37,137 bases of DNA. Source: Giesbergeria sp. (lineage in GTDB: Bacteria; Pseudomonadota; Gammaproteobacteria; Burkholderiales; Burkholderiaceae_C). The position numbers and the translations under genes are program-made. The notes under the pieces are model-generated. The model ran no database searches, was not told the DNA's origin, and saw only the letters and a program-made list of their open reading frames with translations. This document shows positions 12,377 to 20,296 of this stretch, in pieces. The stretch's first letter is position 1. Each line of letters opens with the position of its first letter. The DNA lies in assembly GCA_017985015.1 (NCBI GenBank), contig JAGNYI010000030.1, positions 1 to 37,137 of the forward strand, written 5' to 3'.

Positions 12377-14830
12377 ATGTTCCCACAAGACCCGGTTTCG
12401 CGTGCGCCGCAGGGCGTCGCCTTCCCAGCGCAAGATACTGCGCCAGCCCCTGGCGTTTCGCCGCTGCTGGCGAACCTCAACCCCGAGCAACTCGCCGCCG
12501 TTACGCTGCCGTCAGGCCACGCCTTGATTCTTGCGGGCGCCGGTTCAGGCAAGACACGCGTGCTCACCACGCGCATTGCCTGGCTGTTGCAAAACGGCCT
12601 CGCTACGCCGGGGGGCATTTTGGCCGTAACCTTCACCAACAAGGCCGCCAAGGAAATGGTCGCGCGCCTCTCGGCCATGCTGCCGGTGAATGTGCGCGGC
12701 ATGTGGATCGGCACCTTCCACGGGCTGTGCAACCGGCTCCTGCGCGCGCACCACAAGGCGGCGGGCCTGCCCCAGACGTTTCAGATTCTGGACACGCAAG
12801 ACCAGCTCTCGGCCATCAAACGGCTGTGCAAGCAATACAACGTGGACACCGAGCGCTTCGTGCCCAAACAGCTGCAGTACTTCATTGCCGGCTGCAAGGA
12901 AGAAGGCATGCGCCCAGGCGACGTGCCTGCGAATGACAGCGACGCGCGCAAGAAGGTCGAGATCTACCAGTTGTACGAAGATCAGTGCCAGCGCGAAGGC
13001 GTGGTTGATTTCGGCGAGCTAATGCTGCGCAGCTTCGAGCTGCTGCGCGACAACGACCCGATCCGCGCGCACTACCAGCACCGCTTTGCCCACATCCTGG
13101 TTGATGAGTTTCAGGACACCAACAAGCTGCAGTACGCCTGGCTCAAGCAGCTTGCGGGCGATGAGGTGGCCGGCCACTTTGAGCCGCACGGCAGCGTGAT
13201 GGCCGTGGGCGATGACGATCAGAGCATCTACGCCTTTCGCGGCGCGCGCGTCGGCAACATGCAAGACTTCGTGCGCGAATTCGATGTGCGGCGGCAAATC
13301 AAGCTGGAGCAGAACTACCGCAGCTACAGCAACATTCTGGACAGCGCCAACGCGCTCATCAGCCACAACAGCAAGCGTCTGGGCAAGAACCTGCGCACCG
13401 AGCGCGGCCCGGGCGAGCCGGTGCGCGTGTACGAAGCATCGAGCGATCTGGCCGAGGCGCAGTGGATGGTCGATGAAATCCGCCAGCTGGTGCGCGGCGA
13501 CGGCGTGGCGCGGCAAGAGGTCGCCATCCTCTACCGCAGCAACGCGCAAAGCCGGGTCATTGAAACCGCGCTGTTCAATGCCGCCGTGCCCTACCGCGTC
13601 TATGGCGGCCTGCGCTTTTTTGAGCGCGCTGAGATCAAGCACGCACTGGCCTACCTGCGCCTGCTCGAGAACCCGCAAGACGACACCAGCTTTTTGCGCG
13701 TGGTGAACTTCCCGCCGCGCGGCATTGGCGCGCGCAGCCTGGAGCTGCTGCAGGACGCGGCCAAAGGCGCGGGCTGCTCGCTGCACGACGCCGTCACCAG
13801 CATGACCGGCAAAGCCGGCAGCAACCTGACCGCCTTTGTCGCGCAGATCGACGTGCTGCGCGAGCAGACCCAGGGCCAGCCGCTGCGCGCCATCATTGAG
13901 CAAATGCTGGAGTCGAGCGGCTTGCTGGCGCATTTCCGCGCCGAGCGCGACGGCCAGGACCGCATTGAAAACCTGGAGGAGCTCGTCAACGCCGCCGAGA
14001 GTTTTGTCATGCTGGAAGGCTTCGGGCGCGACGCCGTGGCCTTGCCGCTTGACGAGCACGGCCAGCCCCTCACGCAAAGCCCCGCCAGCCAGGGGCTGGA
14101 CACGACTGCACCGTTGCTGGATGCGCCGCTTTCCGGCCCACCGGGTGTGGACCAGGACACGGGCGAAACGCTCTCGCCCCTTGGAGCCTTCCTGACCCAC
14201 GCCGCGCTCGAAGCCGGCGACAACCAGGCCCAGGCCGGGCAGGACGCGGTGCAGCTGATGACGGTGCACGCCAGCAAGGGCCTGGAGTTCGACGTGGTCT
14301 TCATCGGCGGGCTGGAGGAGGGCCTGTGTCCGCATGAGAACTCACTCTCAGAACAGGGCGGCATCGAGGAAGAGCGCCGCCTGGTGTACGTGGCCATCAC
14401 CCGTGCCCGAAAGCGTTTGTACCTGAGCCACTCGCAGACCCGCATGTTGCATGGCCAGACGCGCTACGCCATCAAAAGCCGCTTTTTCGACGAACTGCCC
14501 GAATCGGCACTGAAGTGGATCACGCCCAAGCAATCTGCCTTTGGCAAATCTGCTCCATATTCAGGAGCTGGTAACGCTTATGGGGCAAGCGCTAGAGGCC
14601 AATTTGGCTTGAATTCTGAGCGCTTCGCCAGCCCACCGGTGCCGCCGCAGAAGCAGGCGCCCGCCCACGGCATCGCGGCCGGCAAGAACGTGTTCCACGC
14701 CAAGTTTGGCGAGGGCAAGGTGCTGGCCATTGAAGGCACAGGCGACGACGCGCGTGCGCAGGTGAGTTTTGGGCGCCATGGCACCAAGTGGCTGGCGCTG
14801 GCGGTGGCGAAGTTGACGGTGGTGGACTGA
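12377..14830 (+). CDS. uvrD: UvrD/PcrA-family DNA helicase
   Basis: 817 aa SF1A 3'-5' helicase for excision and mismatch repair. Motif I AGAGSGKTR begins at residue 53, motif II DEFQDT at 243. Motif III is GDDDQSIYAFRGA, IV LEQNYRS, V TVHASKGLEFDVVF and VI YVAITRARKRLYLSHS. The C-terminal FGEGKVLAIEGTGDDARAQVSF segment is the Tudor-like domain that contacts RNA polymerase in UvrD and PcrA. Start at 12377 (MFPQDPVSR) because the upstream frame runs into the divergent gene. The linker before the Tudor-like domain (about residues 729-746) is made by an in-frame copy of a short dispersed repeat. Rep is the alternative name, but the C-terminal domain favours UvrD. Confidence 0.94.
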   Translation: MFPQDPVSRAPQGVAFPAQDTAPAPGVSPLLANLNPEQLAAVTLPSGHALILAGAGSGKTRVLTTRIAWLLQNGLATPGGILAVTFTNKAAKEMVARLSAMLPVNVRGMWIGTFHGLCNRLLRAHHKAAGLPQTFQILDTQDQLSAIKRLCKQYNVDTERFVPKQLQYFIAGCKEEGMRPGDVPANDSDARKKVEIYQLYEDQCQREGVVDFGELMLRSFELLRDNDPIRAHYQHRFAHILVDEFQDTNKLQYAWLKQLAGDEVAGHFEPHGSVMAVGDDDQSIYAFRGARVGNMQDFVREFDVRRQIKLEQNYRSYSNILDSANALISHNSKRLGKNLRTERGPGEPVRVYEASSDLAEAQWMVDEIRQLVRGDGVARQEVAILYRSNAQSRVIETALFNAAVPYRVYGGLRFFERAEIKHALAYLRLLENPQDDTSFLRVVNFPPRGIGARSLELLQDAAKGAGCSLHDAVTSMTGKAGSNLTAFVAQIDVLREQTQGQPLRAIIEQMLESSGLLAHFRAERDGQDRIENLEELVNAAESFVMLEGFGRDAVALPLDEHGQPLTQSPASQGLDTTAPLLDAPLSGPPGVDQDTGETLSPLGAFLTHAALEAGDNQAQAGQDAVQLMTVHASKGLEFDVVFIGGLEEGLCPHENSLSEQGGIEEERRLVYVAITRARKRLYLSHSQTRMLHGQTRYAIKSRFFDELPESALKWITPKQSAFGKSAPYSGAGNAYGASARGQFGLNSERFASPPVPPQKQAPAHGIAAGKNVFHAKFGEGKVLAIEGTGDDARAQVSFGRHGTKWLALAVAKLTVVD
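14563..14612 (+). repeat. Short dispersed repeat, copy 2 (inside uvrD)
   Basis: AGCTG, then CGCTTAT, seven bases, GCGCTAG and GGCCAATTT. It lies in frame in the variable linker ahead of the C-terminal domain of UvrD and encodes a Gly/Ala/Ser-rich stretch. The spacer length equals that of the copies at 80-126 and 24547-24590. Confidence 0.7.
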
Positions 14831-17484: not shown

Positions 17485-17660
17485 GGTTTTAGAAAATGAA
17501 GCGAAAAATAAATGCTTATAAAAATTTTCATAAAATGAAAAATAAATATCTGTATTCAGATCGCCCCATCAAGAAAAGCATGCATCTTGAAAGCGCCTTT
17601 CGGCACCATATTTAGCTTCTTGCGCTTAAATTTCTATTCATTGTAGTTATTCCGATGTTT
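17485..17660 (+). promoter_or_regulatory. AT-rich leader of the HD-GYP gene
   Basis: An abrupt AT-rich island (clearly above the window average) precedes the HD-GYP start. It contains an 11-base direct repeat GAAAAATAAAT at 17503-17513 and 17537-17547, and an AAAATGAA pair just before or at each. Nothing encodes a protein. It is the likely control region, and such islands often bind nucleoid proteins; no single -35/-10 pair is convincing. Confidence 0.5.
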
Positions 17661-17674
17661 TGCGCACTTGCCAA

Positions 17675-18952
17675 ATGAATCTTCCCGTCACGCGTACCAT
17701 CTCTGTCGATCAATTATGTGTGGGCCTTTATGTGCATCTGGACATGAATTGGCTGGATCACGCGTTTGCACGCAATAGTTTCAAATTAAAAAATGCCGCG
17801 CAGATCGACACCATCAAACGCATGGGTATCAAGGAGATTCGGGTGGAGCCCGCCCGTTGTTCCACCCGTCCTTTGCCTTTGACCGCCAAAGTGTCGGAGC
17901 ATGCGGAAATCGTCGTCCCCAGCGCAGAAGAAAACGCGTTGATCAGCGAGAAAAAGGCGCGCATCGAAAGAATTATTGCAGAACGTGCTGCGATTGCCCA
18001 ATGTGAGAAAGAATTTGCCAAGGCGGGCAGCACCTTGAAAAATATCGAGCGCAGTGTGTTTTCCAGACCGCATGAAGCTTATGCCGATGCAGATCAATTA
18101 GTGCAGCATATGCTGGATGCTCTGCTGGCAGACAAGAGCATTGCGATTCACCTCATGAACGACAAAATCGCGGGTGAGGACGCGTATTTTCATTCGCTGA
18201 ACGTGTCGGTGCTGGCGATGATGCTGGCCAAAGAGTTGGCGCTGCCGGCCGAGGATATCAAAGCCATTGGTATCGGCTGCCTGTTTCATGATATTGGCAA
18301 GGTGGAAATCCCGGCGCGGATTATTAACGCGACTCTCCCTCTCAACCGTGCAGAAAAGAACTTGCTGCAACTGCACTGCCAGTACGGCCTGAATGTGGTG
18401 AGCAAGCTTGGCTTGCCGAGGGCGTCGCTCGACATCATCGGTCAGCACCATGAATCCATGGACGGCAGCGGTTATCCTGATCATTTGCGTGGTGATCAAA
18501 TTTCTTTGTTGGCTCGAATCGTCGGTGTGGTTAACACCTACGACAATCACTGCAACCGTGCCAATCCGGCCGATTCGCTGACACCGTTTGAGGCTTTATC
18601 GATGATGTTCAAGCAGCAGCGCCACTTGCTTGACCCGGCGCCGCTGGATATGTTTATCCGCTGCATGGGGGTCTATCCACCTGGCACACTGGTGAAGCTA
18701 TCGGATGAAGCGCTGGGCATGGTGATTTCGATCAATTCCGGAAAACCATTGCGGCCCAGCGTTTTAATTTATGATCCGAGCGTGCCGAAGAACGAGGCGA
18801 TTATTCTGGATCTAAGTCAGGAAACCGATATAGAGATCAGCGCCAGCTTAAAGCCCAGCCAACTCAGCCAGGAAGCCTACGACTACCTGAGTCCCCGCAA
18901 GCGCATGAGCTATTTTTTGGATGCACCCAAAGTGGGGACGAAGAAGCCCTAG
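17675..18952 (+). CDS. HD-GYP domain c-di-GMP phosphodiesterase
   Basis: 425 aa. The N-terminal ~140 residues match the DUF3391 domain that accompanies many HD-GYP proteins (ISVDQLCVGLYVHLDMNWLDH at the start). The metal-binding HD core follows: HSLNVSVLAMML, then CLFHDIGKVEIP near 200-212, HCQYGLNVV, and HHESMDGSGYPDHLRGDQIS from 258, the HHExxDGxGYP signature. It hydrolyses c-di-GMP to pGpG or GMP. The start at 17675 (MNLPVT) follows the AT-rich leader; a TTG five codons upstream is possible. The stop codon TAG is formed by the CTAG boundary of a palindromic element. Codon use is somewhat AT-richer than its neighbours. Confidence 0.93.
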   Translation: MNLPVTRTISVDQLCVGLYVHLDMNWLDHAFARNSFKLKNAAQIDTIKRMGIKEIRVEPARCSTRPLPLTAKVSEHAEIVVPSAEENALISEKKARIERIIAERAAIAQCEKEFAKAGSTLKNIERSVFSRPHEAYADADQLVQHMLDALLADKSIAIHLMNDKIAGEDAYFHSLNVSVLAMMLAKELALPAEDIKAIGIGCLFHDIGKVEIPARIINATLPLNRAEKNLLQLHCQYGLNVVSKLGLPRASLDIIGQHHESMDGSGYPDHLRGDQISLLARIVGVVNTYDNHCNRANPADSLTPFEALSMMFKQQRHLLDPAPLDMFIRCMGVYPPGTLVKLSDEALGMVISINSGKPLRPSVLIYDPSVPKNEAIILDLSQETDIEISASLKPSQLSQEAYDYLSPRKRMSYFLDAPKVGTKKP

Positions 18953-19117
18953 GGAGCCTCTGCACGAATCGCGTGGCAAGTGGGCGCTGCGGATCGGGAT
19001 GAGCTGCAAGGCGCAAACCGCAGCGATAGCCGTAGCTATCGCGAGGATTTGCAACGCTGCAGATCGCCCGAGGCCGCAGATGCACACGGCGCGACGATTC
19101 GTGCAGAGGCTCCCTAG
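18949..19117. repeat. Palindromic MITE-like element A, CTAG-bounded
   Basis: A perfect 25-base inverted repeat (18947-18971 against 19095-19119) bounds a 161-base interior flanked by CTAG at 18949-18952 and 19114-19117. Termini after CTAG read GGAGCCTCTGCACG. The interior is itself roughly self-complementary and is centred on GCGATAGC-CGTA-GCTATCGC. It encodes nothing. Its left CTAG supplies the TAG stop of the HD-GYP gene. CTAG fits the YTAR target of IS5-group elements, so a non-autonomous relative is plausible (inference). Confidence 0.8.
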
Positions 19118-19284
19118 GGACGTCCTGCATCACTCCTCGCGGCGTGTGATAGCGCGGACTCGGGCGGTCTGCGTCGTTGCGTTTCACAGCCCATAGCTAC
19201 GGCTACTGCCTGCAAAACACGCCTAGCATCCCATCCCGATCCGCACTACACCCACTCGCGTAGAGTTTTGCAGGACATCCCTAG
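19114..19284. repeat. Palindromic MITE-like element B, tandem with A
   Basis: It shares the CTAG at 19114-19117 with element A and ends at CTAG 19281-19284. The termini GGACGTCCTGCA and TGCAGGACATCC match with one change. The interior of 163 bases folds back imperfectly around an ATAGCTACGGCTA core, as in element A, so the two are related but clearly diverged. It is non-coding. Confidence 0.75.
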
Positions 19285-19381
19285 AAATGTTCGTTGGAAC
19301 CTCGCCAATTGCCGGCCGTGCTGTTGCGCTGGTTTGAAAGAATTTTTTCATCGACGGCCCTGCTGGAGCGGCTGCACGCTT

Positions 19382-20170
19382 TCAGTTGATATTTCCATAA
19401 CCGGAGCCGGGTGTGGCTTGCGAACCTTTTTCGTATTGGTGGCCACTTCCGTCCCTGGACCCTTTGACGCCGGTGATCTGCCAGGCAGTGCGCTGGCGCA
19501 CCAGGGCGGCCAGCATCTCCATCTCTTCATCGCTGTGGTTGATGGCGCGGGCCGGGAACAGGCTTTGCCCGTTGCGCGGGCTCGCTTCGGCCCAGAACGA
19601 CTGGTGGTAGGTGGATTCGCTGACGGTCCGGTCTGCGCCTGCGGCAATGTCCACCGTGCCGTAGCAGTTGCAGAAATAGCTGCGAAAGTCCTGCTCGGCA
19701 TGTACCTCGACGTACACGCCGGTGCCTCGGATGCCCGCTGCCATGGTGGGCGTCACCACGCGGCGGTCGCTGCCGCGGCTCCAGACGCTCGCCACGGCCC
19801 CGTGGAGCAGGCGCAGCACGCGCACTGCAACGGGGCTTTCGCCTTCCAGCGCCAGATGGGTGTTTTCGCGCACCAGGAAAGCACTGTCGCCCACGGTCAG
19901 CACCGCGCGGGAGCCCGGGCCGGTCTCCAGGCGGTCGCCTGCGGCAATGGCGTCTTGCAGGCCGATGCGCGCACCATTGCGCAGCACGTCGCCGTGCAGT
20001 TCCACCACACGGCTGGGCATATCGTTCGCGGACTGTCCCCGCACGCTTTGCCAGCCACCAGTGGCCGCCCACAGGCTTGCGGCCTGCAACAGGTGGCGCC
20101 GCAGCAGCGGCGTGCGGTCAGTCGGTTGAGGCAGGCGAAGCGTCGGGGGTCGGAAGGGCATCGACCGCAT
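19382..20170 (-). CDS. FecR-domain exported protein
   Basis: 262 aa. From the start at 20170 it has an N-terminal twin-arginine-like region (RRHLLQAASLWAATGG), suggesting Tat export. The FecR domain follows: VVELHGDVLRNGARIGLQDA, then AAGDRLETGPGSRAVLTVGDSAFLVRENTHLAL, typical of the family. Two cysteines in YFCNCYGTV are close together. FecR domains are often periplasmic sensors or binding modules, but no sigma factor or TonB receptor gene is beside it, so an iron-regulation role is not supported. Alternative ATG at 20161. The 5' end overlaps the decayed duplicate described at 20118-20255. It lies downstream of phoX on the same strand. Confidence 0.85.
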   Translation of the reverse strand: MRSMPFRPPTLRLPQPTDRTPLLRRHLLQAASLWAATGGWQSVRGQSANDMPSRVVELHGDVLRNGARIGLQDAIAAGDRLETGPGSRAVLTVGDSAFLVRENTHLALEGESPVAVRVLRLLHGAVASVWSRGSDRRVVTPTMAAGIRGTGVYVEVHAEQDFRSYFCNCYGTVDIAAGADRTVSESTYHQSFWAEASPRNGQSLFPARAINHSDEEMEMLAALVRQRTAWQITGVKGSRDGSGHQYEKGSQATPGSGYGNIN

Positions 20171-20255
20171 TTTGCTTGTCCTGCGGTTCGGGCGGCTCAA
20201 AACAATCCCGAAAGGCAAGCCCAATCGAGGCCAAAGCACACCACCGCCAGCATGC
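20118..20255 (-). pseudogene. Decayed duplicate of the end of the BPSS1780-like gene
   Basis: About 75 bases (20177-20253) match the 3' part of the gene at 22390-23241 (near 22449-22522) almost base for base, including FRDCFEPPE. A one-base length difference near 20228 breaks the frame, and the C-terminal residues beyond diverge. The remnant lies between phoX and the FecR gene and overlaps the FecR start. It is read as the relic of a gene or segment duplication. Confidence 0.7.
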
Positions 20256-20296
20256 ATGCATGCCGGCAGTCGGGCGTTCTTGCCTCGAACGAAGCC

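Follow-up and report, generated by a model that had tools for sequence, protein, structure and literature searches.

Tandem hairpin elements sharing one CTAG downstream of an HD-GYP-type gene in Giesbergeria: probable IS5-group MITEs with a core common to several end types

Immediately downstream of an HD-GYP-type gene in Giesbergeria sp., two palindromic elements, here called A and B, lie end to end with a single CTAG between them, within a 37,137-nt stretch of DNA that was analysed as a whole (the window). The locus raises the question of what kind of elements these are and how two of them came to occupy the same site beside an intact gene. Their coordinates and those of the neighboring genes are given in Table 1.

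Table 1. Features of the tandem locus and its flanking genes (window coordinates).
Feature	Coordinates	Strand	Evidence
HD-GYP-type gene, 430 aa, TAG stop inside first CTAG	17660..18952	+	ORF; Pfam HD_5 98.5 bits, DUF3391 92.6 bits
Left CTAG, putative target repeat of element A	18949..18952		Window sequence; flanks differ among copies
Element A, putative hairpin MITE of 161 bp, perfect 19-bp terminal inverted repeats	18953..19113		Repeats, alignment, copies
Hairpin core of A, recurring in elements with other ends	19006..19061	-	Core-only own-genome matches of 51-56 bp, 89-95% identity; alignment
Middle CTAG, common to A and B	19114..19117		Window sequence
Element B, putative hairpin MITE of 163 bp, related to A and inverted relative to it	19118..19280		Repeats, alignment, copies
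Core of B, diverged form of A's core	19175..19227	+	Position by comparison with copies; shuffle test of B-type vs A-type core
Right CTAG, putative target repeat of element B	19281..19284		Window sequence
FecR-domain gene, convergent, its 3' end separated by 98 bp from the right CTAG of B	19382..20257	-	ORF; Pfam FecR 26.1 bits (cut-off 24)

The initial annotation had described two tandem palindromic elements with one common CTAG just past the HD-GYP stop codon, and direct reading of the window confirmed this arrangement, with CTAG at all three positions. Since CTAG occurs 23 times in the window and is not rare there, the case for the elements rests on their repeats and on copies elsewhere. The perfect 25-nt inverted repeat earlier assigned to the termini of A (18947-18971 and 19095-19119) is present but extends on each side over the CTAG and two bases beyond it; the terminal inverted repeat that belongs to A itself is 19 bp long and perfect (GGAGCCTCTGCACGAATCG). 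Both termini of B agree over CTAGGGAYGTCCTGCA with one change, as had been reported, and the interiors, previously put at about 162 bases each, measure 161 bp in A and 163 bp in B. Beyond what had been noticed before, A and the reverse complement of B are identical in 118 of 169 aligned columns, which identifies them as relatives in opposite orientation. The pair folds into a single long hairpin (18940-19290, -202.4 kcal/mol; shuffles average -132.7, z = -12.3, and 0 of 100 are as good), and neither A nor B contains an internal ORF of at least 120 aa.

The name of the upstream gene comes from the initial annotation, with which the Pfam HD_5 match agrees. Because its TAG stop lies inside the duplicated target CTAG, the gene was left intact by the insertions. 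Both neighboring genes are also present in another genome of the genus, G025 (HD-GYP match of 85% over query positions 4-551, downstream gene 90% over 975-1301), where neither element was found and the two gene matches are 120 bp apart, compared with 423 in the window. The G025 site reads AAGCCCTGAAAAACAG, as against AAGCCCTAG, then A and B, then AAATG in the window. The prediction of an empty site with a single CTAG was thus borne out in that A and B are absent between the same genes, but the G025 allele is CTGA rather than CTAG. In G003, the HD-GYP gene ends AAGTCTTAGAACTT (CTTAG), carries no element and is followed by a different downstream gene. Both G025 and G003 are diverged relatives and not exact ancestors.

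Copies outside the window bear directly on whether the tandem is a unit. When the own genome (G000; 3.37 Mb, 110 contigs) was queried with 18900-19330, 64 matches were obtained, and beyond the window full copies of A stand alone on contigs C94 and C48, full copies of B stand alone on C64, C101, and C92, and nine further places hold B-like copies, whose ends are GGATGTCCTGCATAAC or GGATCCTCTGCATA. The initial annotation had staked its interpretation on such copies existing elsewhere, and they do. The separate A and B matches stop at the CTAGs. That A-CTAG-B is one composite element which arrived in a single insertion would account for the adjacency of A and B and the single CTAG between them, but we consider it highly improbable, as no A-B pair is found among the own-genome matches beyond the window and each element occurs there alone, with flanking CTAG or related repeats.

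For a wider census, we used the core pattern CGTTGC-N(6-14)-ATAGC-N(3-5)-GCTAT, which matched 32 times in G000, 33 in G003, 14 in G025, and 9 in G009, with 0 matches of the reversed control; these counts are lower bounds, since element B of the window itself misses the pattern (GCTAC for GCTAT). The 88 pattern matches, plus six copies from G007, G018, G019, and G023, were retrieved, and of these 94 the left end assigned a type to 93 (E 32, F 16, A 14, B 8, B2 8, H 7, G 4, B3 3, I 1). Five retrieved loci that lack the core pattern (L239, L240, L242, L245, and L249) and the contig-edge copy L162 were left out of the counts. Across the order, 19 of 250 genomes matched, the reversed control pattern matching in 10 genomes. 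By reading, six of the 19 carry true elements (the own genome, G115, G214, G158, G031, and G211), G198 and G255 are ambiguous, and the other 11 were taken as chance. Other families of the order carry core-bearing elements as well (G158, G031, and G211). Among plasmid records, five match A and one matches B, with no annotated feature beneath the match.

The target rule of the IS5 group is YTAR, into which CTAG falls. Identical YTARs flank 12 of the 14 A-type copies examined, and in 11 of these the flanks are CTAG on both sides; the earlier expectation of CTAG flanks thus describes most A copies, while some copies have another YTAR or unmatched flanks. Types A, B, B2, B3, and E together give 63 bounded copies, of which 57 have YTAR on at least one side, 43 on both sides, and 39 in identical form on both sides; the other 24 lack identical YTARs, which counts against the IS5-group reading. 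Of these 39, 21 are CTAG/CTAG and 18 have other YTARs, which argues that the tetranucleotide belongs to the target and not to the element. The end finder was not given seven H copies and one I copy, and left one E and one B3 copy unbounded. Other end types have other repeats: of 20 bounded copies of F (GTGTCGTGAGTTGG) and G (GTGTGCTGTCCCG), 10 are flanked by TA at either end, and there are identical TNA triplets on both sides in eight of nine loci of H and K (GAACNTGT..), the ninth (L153) being unbounded. TNA is the target repeat of the IS1031 group. In the tables of PMC3281130, most of the IS5/IS5 entries shown have 4-bp repeats, and repeats are mostly 2 bp in the IS427 group and mostly 4 bp in the IS5 group.

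A landing site was found in a short repeat, AAGCGCTAGAGGCC, of which 187, 197, 194, and 80 copies (at most 1 mismatch) occur in G000, G003, G025, and G009, against 0, 0, 0, and 2 for the reversed pattern; it is present in exact form once in the window (14587-14600). When flanks were joined with one copy of the target, 13 of 83 bounded copies restored a AAGCGCTAGAGGCC-like sequence (at most 3 mismatches, shifts of up to 2 bases allowed, no separate chance control), namely A 8/14, B 2/8, B2 2/8, E 1/31, and others 0/22. On this comparison, AAGCGCTAGAGGCC is a separate abundant repeat whose CTAG serves as landing site for A, B, and B2 elements, and it acts as an empty site in many copies, chiefly for A.

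The initial annotation had also called for an IS5-family element with matching termini. Of 26 genomes of the genus, 15 contain PF05598, and a search of the genome contigs with the transposase of one element, L061, gave 71 loci, of which 31 have YTAR on both sides and GG-starting inverted ends in a scripted search, mostly with a length of 1.1-1.25 kb. L061 has CTAG flanks and the ends GGAAGGTCTGCACGAATCGTCG and GGATGCTCTGCACGAATCCC, and its protein has a 100% identical counterpart in Acidovorax sp. SRB_14. Its end GGAAGGTCTGCACGAATCGTCG agrees with the right end of A at 26 of 32 positions, and an IS on contig 81 of the own genome agrees with B at 22 of 32 (left end) and 19 of 32 (right end), none of 20,000 shuffles being as good in any of the three comparisons; the contig 81 IS itself has no clear YTAR flanks (CTAT-like), a point against the IS5-group reading. 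A third element, L055, has E-like ends. The transposases of L061, contig 81, and L055 score 327, 331, and 346 bits on the NCBIfam IS5 model (cut-off 140).

End searches for an autonomous element that has exactly the ends of A found none in the 26 genus genomes, and no transposase-bearing element with them in 200 family genomes, of which 8, the own genome included, matched the ends. In both sets, searches with the A end returned MITE-spaced pairs or lone ends only, and 13 loci (12 places) with lone or odd A ends held no IS5 transposase motifs. In the own genome, no autonomous element with ends identical to those of A or B was found, the IS like B being so by similarity only. A same-genome IS with identical ends is not needed for membership of the IS5 group, although its absence weakens the pairing. 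The claim of a partner element accordingly stands for related ends with CTAG flanks, as in L061, and not for the exact ends of A.

Partners of the other types were sought in the same way. End patterns for F and G (at most 1 and 2 mismatches) returned MITE-spaced pairs and lone ends in the 26 genomes, some of these loci being examined, and 0 of 24 PF13340 loci had F or G ends; a partner for F or G was not found in these sets. K-type elements, 268 bp long (TTA-GAACTTGTCCGTAAATT), have ends resembling sequences beside hits to PF13340 (IS5-type) transposases, with such loci at L378 (G005:C3), L375 (G007:C93), and L351 (G017:C133). At L378, K-like ends lie beside an IS5-type transposase scoring 198 bits on NCBIfam IS5_3 (cut-off 110), and PF13340 transposases are the likely partner of the K type. 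One further locus, L250 (G000:C33), has a lone A-type end, a truncated element that abuts or overlaps reading frames; its neighborhood includes a thymidylate synthase-like and dihydrofolate reductase-like pair, named by eye from the translations.

Taken together, A and B very probably belong to a single hairpin superfamily of non-autonomous IS5-group elements (MITEs), with CTAG as their common target, and the earlier interpretation is supported overall. IS5-family transposases that duplicate a 4-bp YTAR target would mobilize both in trans. The first element would have entered the CTAG that holds the HD-GYP stop codon, duplicating it, and the second would have targeted either of the resulting CTAGs, giving CTAG-A-CTAG-B-CTAG with the stop codon kept. 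We infer two separate insertion events at a common target. Of the earlier proposal, the non-autonomous IS5-group insertion has the YTAR repeats, the lone copies, and the related IS ends in its favor; use of the first element's boundary by the second is simply the simplest reading, equally compatible with A first or B first. A second abutting pair was found in G009, where an E element stands beside an H element with an overlap at TTA(G), the far flank of the E element not matching. The tandem shows how a palindromic target with a TAG stop in it can accept more than one insertion without damage to the gene. Separately, one locus of G003 (L294, G003:C1:1402400-1407400) holds three core-bearing elements, one E and two F, within about 2 kb.

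Many of the own-genome matches to A cover the core only, inside elements with other ends, and one asymmetric hairpin core is common to elements with dissimilar ends and with 4-bp (YTAR), 2-bp (TA), and 3-bp (TNA) repeats. Eleven representatives (consensus sequences of A, B, B2, B3, E, F, and G, and the single copies J, G158, L276, and L271) measure 159-163 bp, with a core start at position 55-57, and this includes types whose arms have no detectable homology. Kinship was assessed by local alignment with 200 shuffles each, the arms of H and K lying outside the test. Cores prove related in most pairings, though the diverged ones of B2, B3, and G158 are not clearly so with respect to A, F, or G. 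Among the arms, A, B, B2, B3, and E are for the most part related to each other, as is G158 to E and B3; F has a relative in L276 (p = 0.01 on either side) and otherwise only a weak one, on one side, in G; and the arms of G, J, and L271 mostly appear unrelated to the rest. J (AGAAGGTGTGAACGAA), found in G002 and G214, differs from the L061 end by 2 mismatches in 15 and may represent a further IS5-type end. Exceptions to the common length are H and K, at 249-268 bp with the core present, three E copies of 176-183 bp, and L343 (G003:C14:33700-34500), an F-type copy of 107 bp without the core.

These exceptions are also what gives some room to the idea that the core moves or recurs as a hairpin in its own right and came into MITEs that are unrelated, whose families would then have no common chassis, as the core also resides inside the longer H and K types and is missing from L343. 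We regard this as unlikely, because independent entry is not expected to yield the uniform length and core position of the 11 representatives, and L343 looks like an internal deletion within the arms, not a clean empty site. The equal length and core position likewise weigh against the idea that different IS ends captured a hairpin by chance. We read them as one old hairpin chassis whose ends would have been swapped to suit different IS5-family transposases, or would have diverged with no net change in length. Tentatively, and as a possibility that falls somewhat short of probable, this may extend to a Burkholderiales superfamily of parasites with a fixed chassis of about 160 bp and a core at a fixed place, in which the arms were repeatedly replaced for IS5-family transposases with 4-, 3-, and 2-bp targets, core and length being constant and selected and the ends exchangeable. 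In the usual account, a bacterial MITE derives from one particular IS by internal deletion. If true, the chassis reading would reverse that account: with core and length constant, and ends and target repeats differing, the MITE lineage would be what persists and the transposase the partner that changes.

The stability of the folds raises the possibility that a hairpin RNA or DNA role at gene ends, such as termination or mRNA stability, retains the elements, mobility being incidental. Gene context was determined for 88 copies with genes called by our own simple script, identical copies being collapsed and orthologous sites kept: 25 lie between convergent genes, 56 between tandem genes, and 4 between divergent genes, with 3 undetermined, and within 60 bp there are 85 gene 3' ends against 28 5' ends. 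This excess, which a gene-end role would predict, is also to be expected if promoter insertions are lost, and promoter avoidance alone would produce it. In the window, A folds better on the strand that is sense for the HD-GYP gene, and B on the one that is sense for the convergent FecR gene. The notion of a 3'-UTR function was rejected: over copies between tandem genes, 20 are sense and 36 antisense (p = 0.044, in the opposite direction and uncorrected for several tests), and type E alone gives 4 sense and 17 antisense (p = 0.007, uncorrected). The strand complementary to CGTTGC does fold better on average in all seven of seven types, by 10-21 kcal/mol, and in four of five further single elements, which a role at gene ends might also explain, but L271 is contrary, and core and arms have opposite signs of G.T/A.C wobble asymmetry. 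Strand-biased C-to-T change could be the source of the fold asymmetry. Rfam 15 gave no match up to E = 1 for window positions 18800-19450. On balance, we hold a gene-end role to be quite improbable, and the lack of a sense-strand preference leads us to take the elements as selfish.

With the IS5-group MITE reading thus preferred, the question of class can be set against known systems. A search of open-access papers found no description of these elements. As in MITEs generally, A and B combine perfect 19-bp terminal repeats (A), a lack of coding capacity, and a length of 161 and 163 bp with frequent target duplication among their YTAR-type relatives, several dispersed copies, and an empty site in G025; a 4-bp YTAR repeat and ends resembling those of an IS with an IS5-family transposase place them in the IS5 subgroup. 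REP, REPIN, and BIME sequences are, like A and B, abundant intergenic palindromes. REPs, however, are far smaller and depend on Y1 (RAYT) transposases, and palindromes of 20-40 bp without long terminal repeats or duplications differ in size and target repeats from A and B, whose terminal repeats are long, whose targets are duplicated, and whose ends are of IS5 type. In Neisseria, the Correia elements (NEMIS) are intergenic hairpin MITEs of about 100-160 bp in many copies, similar to A and B in form and size, with a TA target and other ends. The conservative statement is that A and B are IS5-group MITEs of the kind of MITEPsy1. The closest known system, MITEPsy1 of Pseudomonas syringae pv. phaseolicola, has ISPsy2 (IS5 family) as its presumed source (PMC3189936). 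As described there, it is likewise short and gene-less, with terminal repeats of the same style (GGAAGGTCTGAAAAAGCC) and IS5-family-like ends, inserts after CTAG or YTAA with a 4-nt duplication, and has been reported in tandem insertion with an IS (PMC3189936). That account gives MITEPsy1 as 100 nt long, in few copies, with one end type and with transposition demonstrated (PMC3189936), whereas elements of the A and B kind are full-length hairpins of about 160 bp with a core common to several end types, and their mobility is inferred.
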